The notes under the pieces are model-generated. The model made no database searches, was not told where the DNA came from, and saw only the letters and a program-made list of their open reading frames with translations. The translations under genes and the position numbers were made by a program. Source: Gilliamella sp. App4-10 (GTDB lineage: Bacteria; Pseudomonadota; Gammaproteobacteria; Enterobacterales; Orbaceae). Taken from it: 58,021 nucleotides of DNA. The stretch spans positions 1-58,021 of the forward strand of contig NZ_LZGS01000053.1 of assembly GCF_001690495.1 (NCBI RefSeq), read 5' to 3'. This document shows, one piece after another, positions 16,209 through 42,974 of this stretch (position 1 is its first letter; each line of letters starts with the position of its first letter).

Positions 16209-16248
16209 TTTTATACTAAAAGACATAGTTCCCTGAAAGTTTTTTACA
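16209..16248 (+). repeat. 40-nt dispersed intergenic element, copy 1
   Basis: This copy begins TTTTATACT, carries CTAAAAG and CTGAAAG words whose starts are 17 nt apart, and ends GTTTTTTACA. It aligns without gaps to copies at 22886, 25844 and (reversed) 42935, and is the most divergent of the four. It lies between macA and yfhL, 105 bases before the yfhL start. Confidence 0.75.
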
Positions 16249-16353
16249 ATAATTGAGTCGCTCAATAAGCGACAACTTGATCTTTATTAGGATTTATTGG
16301 CGATTGCGCTATAATGGCGAAAATTTTTTGAAGTCGGTAAAGATAGAAGAGCA

Positions 16354-16608
16354 ATGGCGTTAAAAATAACTAATAAGTGTATTAATTGTGATATGTGTGA
16401 GCCTGAGTGCCCAAATGAGGCTATCTCAATGGGTTTTGATACTTATGAAATTGATCCTAATAAATGTACCGAATGTGTAGGTTATTATGATCATTCGACA
16501 TGTCAGCGTGTTTGCCCTATTCAAAATGCGATTATTGCCGACCCTGAACATGTTGAAACAAAAGAAGCGTTATTAGCAAAATTTCAGGGACTGAAAGCTT
16601 CTTCTTAA
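16354..16608 (+). CDS. yfhL: YfhL family 4Fe-4S dicluster ferredoxin
   Basis: An 84-residue ferredoxin. Two clusters are expected from [12 protein letters not shown] (first CxxCxxCxxxCP) and from the second set CTEC ... CQRVCP, which has the longer insertion (VGYYDHST) typical of Allochromatium-type ferredoxins such as YfhL. It functions as a soluble electron carrier; its partner is not clear from the neighbours. It is convergent with ispH, itself an iron-sulfur enzyme needing reductant, with one base between stop codons. Confidence 0.93.
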
Positions 16609-16609
16609 A

Positions 16610-17557
16610 TTAAATTGGCTTAATATCAATCCGAAGCTCTTTGGGAATTTCAAAGGTGATATTTTCTAAAATGCCATCTGTTTCAATGAGTGATGTACAA
16701 CCGAGGCTTTTTAAATGATTAATCACTTGCTGTACTAAAATATCAGGGGCAGAAGCGCCGGCTGTTACACCGATTGTCTGTGCATTTATCAACCATTCTT
16801 TGCGGATATCAGAAGCAAAATCAATTAAATAAGCCTGTTTGCTGTTTCGCCTTGCTAGCTCGGCTAGGCGATTGGAATTAGACGAATTTTTAGAACCAAC
16901 GACAAAGACAATATCGGCACGTGATGATAGCTGTTTAACGGCTTGCTGGCGATTGGTTGTCGCATAGCAGATATCATTTTTGCGAGGACTGCGAATATTA
17001 GGAAAACGTTTTTTTAAAGCAGTAATGATCTCGGCTGTATCATCAACTGATAACGTTGTTTGCGTGGTAAAGCAAAGGTTATTTTCGTTTTTTACCTGTA
17101 GCTTTTGTACATCATCAATCGATTCAATTAAATAGATGCCACCTTCGGGATTGTTATATTGCCCCATTGTACCATCTACTTCGATGTGACCTGCATGTCC
17201 GATTAAAATGACCTCTTCGCCACGATAGCTTGATCGAGCAACTTCCATATGCACTTTGGTTACGAGTGGACAAGTCGCATCAAAAACGCGGAGTTTGCGT
17301 TGTTTGGCTTCCTCTCGGATCGCTTTAGACACACCATGTGCCGAAAATATAAGAATGGTGTTGTCGGGTACTTCGCTAATATCTTCAATAAAGATCGCCC
17401 CTAACTCTTTTAGACGATTAACAACATAGCGATTATGTACAACCTCGTGGCGCACATAAACTGGTGCACCAAATAATACAAGTGCACGTTCAACGATGGT
17501 GATAGCACGATCAACACCAGCACAAAAACCACGAGGATTAGCTAAAATAATTTGCAT
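16610..17557 (-). CDS. ispH: 4-hydroxy-3-methylbut-2-enyl diphosphate reductase IspH
   Basis: Last enzyme of the MEP isoprenoid pathway, converting HMBPP to IPP and DMAPP using a 4Fe-4S cluster. The 315-residue protein from ATG 17557 ([15 protein letters not shown]) carries the three cluster cysteines in [14 protein letters not shown] and [10 protein letters not shown], and the HxxVH, SAHG and GHAGHIE motifs. The frame is open 156 bases further upstream, but that part overlaps lspA and has no family similarity. It starts one base past the lspA end. The fkpB gene that separates lspA and ispH in E. coli is absent. Confidence 0.96.
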
Positions 17558-17558
17558 A

Positions 17559-18029
17559 CTATACAGTCTTCTTCGGTTTTTTATAATTACAGAAGATAAA
17601 TAATCCAATACCCATGCAGATTGCACAATCTGCGATATTAAAGGTTGGATAGTGCCAATCACCAAAATTGACATCAAGAAAGTCGACGACAAAACCATGA
17701 TAAAGGCGATCAAATAAATTACCTAATGCACCACCTAAAATCAGCGATAATGAAAAATTTTCTAATTTTTGCTGGCGAGTATTACGGTATAACATATACA
17801 AAATCACGGCACTGATAATCAAGGCGATAGCGGCAAGCATCGTACGTTGACCTTCAAGAATGCTAAAGGCAGCGCCAATATTGCGTACATAAGTAATTGA
17901 GAAGAAGGGTAATAGGTTCACTGATTCAAATAGTGAGAAGTTATTTAAAATCCAAAATTTACTTGCGATATCAATGATAAAAACAATGATTGCAAATAAT
18001 AACCAGTAAAGTCCGTTATCTTTTTTCAT
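17559..18029 (-). CDS. lspA: Lipoprotein signal peptidase II
   Basis: Inner-membrane aspartyl protease that removes signal peptides from diacylglyceryl-prolipoproteins. The 156 residues form four membrane helices and carry both catalytic Asp motifs: [15 protein letters not shown] and the FNIADCAI segment. Length is close to E. coli LspA (164 aa). It follows ileS after 110 bases containing a palindrome and abuts ispH. Confidence 0.96.
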
Positions 18030-18052
18030 ATAAGTCTGTGCTCATTATTATA

Positions 18053-18078
18053 TTTCCGCCGACAATTGTCGGCGGAAA
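18053..18078. repeat. 26-bp perfect palindrome between ileS and lspA
   Basis: TTTCCGCCGACAA is followed directly by its exact reverse complement. It lies in the 110-base gap inside the ribF-ileS-lspA-ispH operon, 24 bases before lspA. There is no T run after it on the transcribed strand, so it is not a classic terminator; an mRNA-stabilising stem, partial attenuator or protein-binding site are possible. A weaker stem AGCTATA/TATAGCT follows at about 18089-18111. Confidence 0.85.
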
Positions 18079-41130: not shown

Positions 41131-41145
41131 AATCTCAAAATTTAG

Positions 41146-41167
41146 ACCGGTTTATCCGGTTTTTTTA
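41146..41167 (+). terminator. Terminator/attenuator between upp and uraA
   Basis: ACCGG (41146-41150), TTTAT loop, CCGGT (41156-41160), then T run. The stem is short (5-6 bp), so read-through into uraA is likely. Confidence 0.75.
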
Positions 41168-41222
41168 TGCCTGTTAATCAGACAAATTATATACAAACTT
41201 AGTTAAGTAAGAGAGGCGCAAT

Positions 41223-42491
41223 GTGAGTAATATCACAACAGACAAATCAAAAAATATAACATCACTGCATAAGCATTCTTGGCAGGATATTTTTACTGGA
41301 GCACAAATGTTATTTGTTGCATTTGGTGCTTTGGTGCTAGTACCACTATTAACGGGGTTAAATCCGAATGTGGCTTTTTTTACGGCTGGAGTGGGCACTT
41401 TATTATTTCAATTAACCACTAAAGGTAAAGTCCCAGTATTTTTAGCTTCATCATTTGCTTTTATTGCCCCTATTTCATTTGGCGTTGCGCAATGGGGAAT
41501 CCCCGCTACTTTAGGCGGTTTAGTGGCTGCCGGATTTGTATTTATGTTTTTTGCTTTTTTGGTAAAAATAAATGGTAAAGATGTCATTGATCGCATCTTG
41601 CCGCCGGTTGTGACAGGTCCAATTATTATGGTTATTGGTTTATCGCTTGCACCGGTTACTGTTGGGATGGCAATGGGTAAAGATAGTGGATTGCAAGCTG
41701 AAAATTATCAATTGATTATTATTTCAATGGCATCATTATTAACAACGTTAGTGGTAGCTATTTGGGCAAAAGGATTTTTAAAATTATTACCTATTATTTC
41801 GGGTATTGTGGTTGGTTATACGCTTTCTTGCATGTTTGGTATTGTTAATTTTCAACCGGTGATTGATGCGCCATGGTTTAAAGTGCCTGATTTCACGTTT
41901 CCTGAATTTCATTGGCAAGCCATTTTGTATATGCTTCCAATTGTGATTGCACCAACCATTGAACATGTTGGTGATATTATGGCAATTAGTACTGTCACAG
42001 GTAAAGATTATACGCGTGATCCTGGTTTGCAGCGTACGTTGCTTGGTGATGGGCTAGCTACTTCGACAGCAGGACTTTTTGGTGGACCACCGTGTATTAC
42101 TTATGCTGAAGTGATTGGAGCAGTAACTTTAACCCGTAATTTTAAAACTCGAGTCATGACATGGGCGGCACTTTGGGCGATTTTAATGTCTTTTATTGGC
42201 AAGATAGGCGCTTTTTTAAGTTCAATTCCAACAGTAGTCATGGGGGGAATTATGGTGCTACTGTTTGGTTCTATTGCATCAGTAGGTATTAATATCTTAG
42301 TCAAACATAAAGTGGATCTTTCCGTACCTCGAAATATGTGTATTGTCTCATTAGTCTTAGTTTTTGGGATCGGTGGGATGATCTTTGATTTTGGATCGTA
42401 TGCCCTACAAGGCATCAGTTTATGTGGTATTTTAGCCATTGTGTTAAATCTTATATTGCCACATCAAGCCAAACCGACTGATAGCCACTAA
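41223..42491 (+). CDS. uraA: Uracil permease UraA (NCS2 family)
   Basis: Proton-coupled uracil importer of the inner membrane. The 422-residue protein has the NAT/NCS2 14-helix pattern, with the substrate region FGGPPCITYAEVIGAVTLTRN (helix 10) and APTIEHVGDI (helix 8). Length is close to E. coli UraA (429). The start is GTG at 41223; an ATG two bases earlier (41221) would read ATG-TGA, so the two starts compete at one ribosome site (GAGAGG). It ends at a perfect 11-bp stem. Confidence 0.96.
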   Translation: MSNITTDKSKNITSLHKHSWQDIFTGAQMLFVAFGALVLVPLLTGLNPNVAFFTAGVGTLLFQLTTKGKVPVFLASSFAFIAPISFGVAQWGIPATLGGLVAAGFVFMFFAFLVKINGKDVIDRILPPVVTGPIIMVIGLSLAPVTVGMAMGKDSGLQAENYQLIIISMASLLTTLVVAIWAKGFLKLLPIISGIVVGYTLSCMFGIVNFQPVIDAPWFKVPDFTFPEFHWQAILYMLPIVIAPTIEHVGDIMAISTVTGKDYTRDPGLQRTLLGDGLATSTAGLFGGPPCITYAEVIGAVTLTRNFKTRVMTWAALWAILMSFIGKIGAFLSSIPTVVMGGIMVLLFGSIASVGINILVKHKVDLSVPRNMCIVSLVLVFGIGGMIFDFGSYALQGISLCGILAIVLNLILPHQAKPTDSH

Positions 42492-42505
42492 ATTAATTCA
42501 CTTTT

Positions 42506-42535
42506 CGTTGACTATATTTATAGTCAACGATTTTA
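42506..42535 (+). terminator. Terminator after uraA
   Basis: CGTTGACTATA (42506-42516) and TATAGTCAACG (42519-42529) form a perfect 11-bp stem followed by ATTTTATA, 15 bases after the uraA stop. Confidence 0.8.
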
Positions 42536-42934
42536 TAATATAACCGCGTTAATCTATTTATTGCTACATTATTGTGTATTGCTTAACACTTTAAACAATA
42601 GATAAAAGTGAATAATTACTCACTTTTTTATTAAGCACTATTAGAATAATACTTATCTTTATCATTTTATGATTGTTGTAACACGACAATAAATCAATTT
42701 TAGCAATATTGATTCTCTTTTTAATGTTAGACGATTAATTGATAAAGCATGCTTTTGTCGTTTATGATGGCATACTAATTACTAAGTATGTAAGTAATAA
42801 CTTACAATGTTTTTTGTGAATCATCAAGTTTGCTATTGCTTAACTGAGTATTAAATGAATGCGGAATTTAGATTAGTTATTCTTAAGTAAAATGAGACAG
42901 CAAGGTTTTTTATTAGCTATAATACAAAATCGTT
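42536..42934. other. AT-rich convergent intergenic region uraA / lysS
   Basis: About 400 bases with no gene I can support. It has a minor stem around 42673-42690 (ATTGTTGT ... ACGACAAT, one G-U pair). Its right part leads into copy 4 of the 40-nt element and the lysS terminator. Confidence 0.6.
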
Positions 42935-42974
42935 TGTCAAAAAGTTTCAGGAAAGTATGTGTTTCAGTATAAAA
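42935..42974 (-). repeat. 40-nt dispersed intergenic element, copy 4 (minus strand)
   Basis: Read on the minus strand it starts TTTTATACTGAAAC, has ten variable bases (ACATACTTTC), then CTGAAACTTTTTGACA. It is downstream of lysS in a convergent gap, unlike copies 1-3 which precede plus-strand genes. It differs from copy 3 at two of 40 positions. Confidence 0.8.

Follow-up and report, generated by a model that had tools for sequence, protein, structure and literature searches.

What is the short sequence that recurs four times between the genes of a 58,021-nt stretch of DNA from Gilliamella sp. App4-10 (contig NZ_LZGS01000053.1; this whole stretch is referred to below as the window)? The original prediction described an ungapped 40-nt element, and proposed either a conserved binding site or a small mobile or structural element. 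In a comparison of Gilliamella genomes, the four copies prove to be members of a 44-nt family, TTTTATACTnAAAC(10–11 nt)CCTnAAACTTnTTnACAAAA, which is dispersed between genes. Its two conserved words are mainly 17 nt apart in one branch of the genus and 18 nt apart, wherever countable, in the branches outside it.

The window copies and their family

The four window copies, with position weight matrix (PWM) scores and flanking genes, are:
16209..16252, + strand: element copy 1, PWM score 50.9; flanked by an HlyD-type gene (14895–16085, - strand) and a 4Fe-4S ferredoxin-like open reading frame (ORF) (16354–16608, + strand).
22886..22929, + strand: element copy 2, PWM score 53.6; flanked by a GTP cyclohydrolase I gene (22149–22808, - strand) and polA (23010–25787, + strand); orthologous gaps in 30 genomes, counting the own one.
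25844..25887, + strand: element copy 3, PWM score 62.6; between the 3' side of polA and a Glx-tRNA synthetase gene (26068–27498, + strand); orthologous gaps in 28 genomes, counting the own one.
42931..42974, - strand: element copy 4, PWM score 61.2; starts 44 nt past a class II tRNA synthetase gene of the D/K/N type (43019–44536, - strand); orthologous gaps in 21 genomes, counting the own one.

Re-alignment reproduces the four ungapped copies where they had been described. All begin with TTTTATACT, end with TTTACA or TTGACA and have two CTnAAA(C/G) words at 17 nt, as predicted. Also as noted before, two of the 40 positions distinguish copies 3 and 4, and all four copies are outside ORFs. Conservation extends beyond the proposed 40 nt, to approximately 44 nt. 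A scan of the window with copy 3 shows four places with at least 30/40 identity (34, 35, 38 and 40); the next best is 24, and in 100 first-order Markov resamplings of the window the identity never exceeds 27.

A sequence-only model of 44 positions was built from 40 of the 41 aligned copies of the own genome (G000, 2.43 Mb in 53 contigs; the copy at C1:44352 was left out), the window copies being part of this set. In the columns of the 41 copies the two words TTTTATACTnAAAC and CCTGAAACTTTTTnACAAAA are strong, the spacer is freer and the flanks carry almost no information; the site information is about 55 bits over 44 positions. The two ends, TTTTATAC and TTTTGTMA (reverse complement), have by eye only an AT-rich start in common, and the flank columns hold little information. 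At E ≤ 0.001, the model matches the own genome at 84 places. The family had been considered doubtful if a genome search were to find no further copies; many are present. A BLAST search with a query around copy 3 gives at least 40 own-genome places, and copy 1 is not among the matches listed.

The same model and threshold were applied to 44 genomes of the family Orbaceae. Presence across Gilliamella is two-peaked: 22 of 35 genomes are rich (23 to at least 144 matches) and 13 are poor (0–10 matches). None of the nine genomes from other genera of the family has a match. Beyond the family, two genomes have one match each at E ≤ 0.01 (E about 0.008–0.009), and these are taken as chance. An exact-pattern scan of named genomes matched eight stretches, all from Gilliamella, and the 17-nt pattern is present in records of G. 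bombi and G. intestini. Single good copies are found in nearly empty genomes, i.e., L117 6247–6290 (G006), L118 5306–5349 (G043), C5:302865 (G042) and L208 7892–7933 (G040). Genome G015, with a completeness of 74% and a contamination of 5%, has a polA that groups with a branch without the element; the G015 copies may be foreign. Viral contigs (exact patterns only) and a plasmid collection (one 55-nt query) have no element match, and a phage or plasmid origin was rejected on this basis.

The copies are strongly intergenic. With an ORF overlap of at most 15 nt allowed, 39/41 copies in G000 and 75/82 in the G012 stretches examined lie between genes, compared with 17–23% of random placements in the same stretches; copies are thus not located inside genes at random, an outcome that would have spoken against the family. 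The gap types are close to random under the ORF-based gene model on which the placement analysis rests: 23 tandem, 8 convergent and 6 divergent in G000 (n = 37 classified) and 39, 13 and 16, respectively, in G012 (n = 68 classified). In tandem gaps the element is closer to the gene 3' end in 18/23 (G000) and 27/39 (G012) cases, a total of 45/62, and it is on the strand of the genes in 10/23 and 16/39. The relation to gene starts, ends and strand, which had been named as a check, is therefore one with no fixed placement at starts and no strand preference. The sites are dispersed along the complete chromosome of G012, where no orientation blocks are significant (permutation p 0.093; 100 of 108 sites used).

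This placement bears on a possible promoter or transcription-factor box, which appears as TTTCAG-17-TATAAA when the minus strand is read. The words look like spaced hexamers, and promoter spacers are usually 17 and 18 nt. A promoter or factor box was nevertheless rejected on the lack of fixed placement and orientation at gene starts, the tandem copies showing neither the strand of the genes nor proximity to their 5' ends, and such a role is considered improbable. A signal at the RNA level, i.e., part of a terminator, a processing site or an antitermination site, would agree with the T-rich right arm and with copy 4, whose first TTTT doubles by eye as the T run of an inverted repeat from which the copy continues. 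The lack of strand preference argues against it. In addition, the folding of copy 3, the copy modeled, has minimum free energies of -0.6 and -0.7 kcal/mol, no better than shuffled sequences on either strand. Rfam at gathering threshold shows no family at the copies; its only matches in the window are 23S (partial) and 5S rRNA. Positions 1–586 of the window are the end of the 23S rRNA gene and the 5S rRNA gene. An RNA-level signal is very improbable, and the folding result for copy 3 also disfavours a structural RNA. The intergenic, orientation-free copies and the lack of a fold in copy 3 point to a function in double-stranded DNA that is not linked to one gene.

Spacing by branch at conserved loci

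Spacing was counted by exact-pattern matches, which miss diverged copies and are given here as 17-nt form/18-nt form. The 17-nt form predominates in G000 (27/1), G041 (51/3), G017 (55/1), G010 (57/2) and G044 (31/2). The 18-nt form predominates in G012 (0/98), G002 (0/78), G001 (0/102), G003 (0/53), G007 (1/53), G005 (0/49), G016 (0/43), G015 (0/43) and G021 (0/9). Reversed patterns, used as a control, give 0 (17) or 0–2 (18) matches per genome and strand. The 17-nt form is regular in 12 species that represent one branch of the polA tree (12 of 30 rows; Shimodaira-Hasegawa-like approximate likelihood ratio test, SH-aLRT, 98). This tree is of one gene and covers 30 of the 35 genomes, with G040, G016, G011, G004 and G005 left out. 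Within the branch, few exact matches are present in G022 (8/0), G018 (6/1) and G046 (4/1). Branches outside it have 18 nt wherever countable.

The difference is found at the same loci. Both flanks of 23 of the 41 G000 copies could be located in the G012 stretches examined, and when the best same-strand element-like match is taken in each gap, the spacing is 17 in G000 and 18 in G012 in 23/23. The G012 loci used for this mapping and for the position dependencies below were mostly selected for holding a match; the exact-pattern counts of spacing and right arm are free of that selection. In 19 close-anchored gaps (four with more than 1000 nt between G012 anchors were dropped), an average of 24.8 of 26 core positions are identical between the two genomes. 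The ten free positions match at 5.0, compared with 4.91 in shuffled pairs (p 0.39). The core persists, and the bases outside it retain no trace of the history of the single site.

The right arm CTGAAACATCTTTACA is a second trait that is specific to a branch. It is present in 33 copies in G021, 34 in G016, 29 in G003 and 2 in G023, with 0–1 in the remaining 31 genomes, and among the matches listed all copies with this arm are 18-spaced. Dependencies between positions are of short range. In 81 G012 copies, the ten strongest are between positions at most 3 apart, and one weak dependency spans 18. More long-range linkage is expected were the copies recently derived from one another.

Stability, decay and duplication of the sites

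A stretch of 200 kb common to G012 and G002 has 9/9 strong copies at identical places. This is a comparison of one species pair, in which three weak G012 places (20–21 of 27) were set aside. Presence/absence differences of the kind expected of an active miniature inverted-repeat transposable element (MITE) between close relatives are thus not found among these nine sites. The Y1_Tnp profile (PF01797) has no match in 34 of 35 Gilliamella genomes, the single match being in G009; as a control, the profile is positive in 5 of 14 known genomes, including E. coli. Repetitive extragenic palindromic (REP) sequences mobilized by REP-associated tyrosine transposases (RAYTs) were rejected on this result and on the hairpin-free copy 3. 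A small mobile element is disfavoured because the 9/9 sites are common to both genomes, because no Y1/RAYT transposase is found in 34/35 and because the dependencies are short-range.

Orthologous gaps reveal decay in place. In the copy 2 gap, the poor genomes G013, G048, G014 and G050 have remnants that score 21–23 of 29, with a maximum of 19 in 150 shuffled gaps. In the copy 3 gap, G013, G048, G045, G006 and G043 score 21–23 and shuffles reach up to 22, which is borderline. Mean pairwise identities in rich/poor genomes, calculated from 19, 17 and 16 rich and 10, 10 and 5 poor genomes for copies 2, 3 and 4, respectively (G015 was excluded as mixed), are 0.76/0.62, 0.78/0.58 and 0.87/0.65 for the words. 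The corresponding values for the two 60-nt flanks are 0.71/0.73 and 0.72/0.78 (copy 2), 0.40/0.33 and 0.75/0.68 (copy 3) and 0.72/0.75 and 0.43/0.46 (copy 4). From rich to poor genomes the flank identity drops at one locus and increases at two. The rich–poor contrast is therefore greater for words than for flanks, and, in absolute value, word conservation at copies 2 and 3 is only slightly above that of the better-kept flank of the same gap.

An old dispersed repeat (MITE- or REP-like), which spread once and is decaying at differing speeds, would agree with the high information per copy, the intergenic location closer to gene 3' ends, the branch-specific variants and decayed copies that occur in rich genomes too. 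It does not agree with the near absence of Y1_Tnp, the lack of a hairpin in copy 3, the confinement of the strongest linkage to nearby positions or the lack of gain or loss of sites in 200 kb between close species. Neutral decay also fails to explain an identical one-base difference at every mapped gap. This explanation is regarded as having a low probability.

Some elements are arranged in arrays in which they alternate with related spacers. The short-spacer arrays are L198, L199 and L200 (G012) and L197 (G016). Those in G012 consist of one array of four elements with spacers of 142–143 nt that are 80–89% alike, and two of three elements each with spacers of 146 nt (92%) and 109–111 nt (93%); the G016 array has four elements and spacers of 241–242 nt (93–94%). 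Longer gene-bearing units are present between elements in G010 (L120, about 940 nt, 96%) and G017 (L121, 1.4–2.2 kb, 93–94%). Spacer likeness is weaker in G012 L201 (1.6 kb, 71%) and in G041 (65%, which may be background). ORFs in L121 and in a repeated block of G012 (L202) are of the Rhs, AHH or PAAR/DUF4225 families, and in L201 of DUF7079. Duplication also occurs within elements: the left 16 nt are in tandem at copy 4 orthologues, three times in G017 (L091) and twice in G044 (L090), and twice at own-genome C4:89415–89471.

The genes beside arrays include yejK, a MATE transporter gene, a ridA-like gene, an aminotransferase gene, ffh, manA, GntR and LysR regulator genes, a type III restriction gene, and Rhs and PAAR genes. 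Those beside lone copies include a hemN-like radical SAM gene, metG, a methylenetetrahydrofolate reductase gene and carB. The 30 proteins scanned at the two kinds of locus are mostly from ordinary genes, and none is common to the element loci. In G041, L196 6009–8977 has three elements between the yejK nucleoid-associated protein gene and a MATE transporter gene, and L209 (G010) has two elements next to ORFs of sizes like those at L196.

The arrays fit slippage or exchange between neighbouring copies, with a cutting enzyme as a possible cause. They bring in the rival with the most support, a recombinase or nuclease substrate, where cutting or strand exchange would lead to conversion between copies and to tandem duplication of the DNA between them. 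The arrays in G012, G016, G010 and G017 (and, less clearly, L201 and G041), the small duplications within elements of G044, G017 and G002 and the coordinated change of spacing and right arm are all consistent with it. Between close species, however, no whole-element replacement is seen; the differences at the nine sites amount to nine point changes and a single internal duplication. The same arrays could arise by ordinary slippage, or by exchange between direct repeats that lie close together, and no recombinase was identified, Y1_Tnp being the sole family searched for. This reading is considered unlikely, with a higher standing than the old repeat or the promoter.

Proposed recognition site and comparison with known systems

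Of the two alternatives in the original prediction, a conserved binding site is the most likely, and a mobile or structural element is disfavoured as described above. A double-stranded site read by a protein is favoured because the positions are stable, the free spacer bases beside the conserved words are memoryless and the spacing is branch-specific. The element may represent the recognition site of one dedicated, dispensable putative DNA-binding protein or complex of Gilliamella, a reading that we consider to have an even chance of being correct. The protein that we infer would read ACTnAAAC and CCTnAAAC through two modules of like orientation and would also contact the T-rich arms on the outside. 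It would gauge how far apart the words are (17 or 18 bp), disregard most of the spacer and act at about 25–150 intergenic places per chromosome in either orientation. Its reach may have shifted on the way to one branch, with the sites adapting from 18 to 17 (the direction being the presumed one), and loss of the protein in some lineages would leave the sites to decay in place. A one-bp change in reach with adaptation of the sites would explain why the spacing differs by branch at loci that have not moved, why some species are mixed and why sites decay upon loss of the protein. The number of intergenic sites, their more frequent location near gene 3' ends and their use in either orientation make a chromosomal role, i.e., architecture, insulation, recombination or repair, more likely than control of a regulon.

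Several observations weigh against the recognition-site reading. No candidate for the cognate protein is found in the 30 proteins near arrays and lone copies. Site information of about 55 bits is far above the need for marking about 100 sites, and usually hints at copying. The spacing is mixed in four genomes of the 17-nt branch, G008 (5/4), G020 (15/14), G047 (16/18) and G009 (32/9), and the 17/18 rule is therefore not absolute; most 18-nt copies of G020, G047 and G009 start with ACTTAAAC and have their own spacers, alongside the 17-nt form. Genome G023 is almost without exact matches (0/0, or two of the 18-nt form in another pattern count). A conversion process could equally yield the coordinated change. 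Between G012 and G002, the element has proportionally fewer substitutions (9/378) than the flanks (61/1435), but the difference is not significant (Fisher p 0.10), so this pair alone is no proof of constraint, and one of the nine G002 copies has a 12-nt internal duplication. Clear remnants in poor genomes are found at copy 2 only, the scores at copies 3 and 4 being borderline. Decayed copies are also present in rich genomes: copy 2 in G021, G003, G023 and G022, copy 3 in G044, G018, G008 and G046 (with a deletion in G022), and copy 4 in G022.

Taken further, the recognition-site reading suggests an undescribed chromosome-wide system in which one protein with about 100 asymmetric sites per genome would have undergone a one-bp change in reach, followed by parallel one-base deletions in dozens of conserved sites towards one branch, and was apparently lost in other branches, where the sites now decay. 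This fuller proposal is tentative, and falls slightly short of an even prospect. Protein-DNA co-evolution is usually observed at a handful of regulatory sites. Here dozens of scattered sites at conserved loci differ jointly in spacing from branch to branch within Gilliamella, of which many species have been sequenced. Together with the mixed species and the lineages with decayed sites, this represents a natural experiment on the shift and loss of a genome-wide recognition code, and the two-peaked presence should allow a search for the cognate protein by profiling of full gene lists.

A description of the family was not found in the open-licence PMC literature on Gilliamella repeats, DNA sites and comparative genomics, and the element does not appear in the portions of PMC12306157 and PMC11325843 that were available. 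Among known systems, the element is like REP sequences and bacterial interspersed mosaic elements (BIMEs) in being short and intergenic, in numbering tens to hundreds of copies that frequently lie close to the 3' ends of genes, and in forming some arrays. REPs are described, in the available portion of one report, as hairpins located preferentially near gene ends (PMC12306157). Unlike the REP/RAYT system, the element has stable positions and a branch-specific spacing, copy 3 has no hairpin and a Y1 transposase is present in 1 of 35 genomes.

The end sites of bipartite transposases and recombinases are long and asymmetric, with two like-oriented words and T-rich arms, and the element resembles them in these traits. 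It differs in that no element bounded by the sites is seen and in that its positions are common across species. DNA uptake sequences of Pasteurellaceae and Neisseriaceae share with it the property of a genus-specific dispersed signal, and the extended Haemophilus uptake signal also has spaced AT-rich parts. Uptake sequences number hundreds to thousands of copies according to the available part of PMC2346458, whereas the element has about 100 copies, is intergenic and longer, and has a branch-specific spacing.

The element is about 44 bp, asymmetric, has two direct words and is spread over the G012 chromosome, and it is missing or decayed in several Gilliamella branches. In these properties it is unlike matS (read by MatP), parS, the FtsK orienting polar sequences (KOPS) and SlmA sites, which are 8–16 bp and mostly palindromic. 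The likeness to these sites, each kind of which is read by one dedicated protein, lies in the dispersal of double-stranded DNA sites over a chromosome, in the proposed reading by such a protein and, as for matS, in sites that are held in place while the free bases saturate, at some loci if not at every one.

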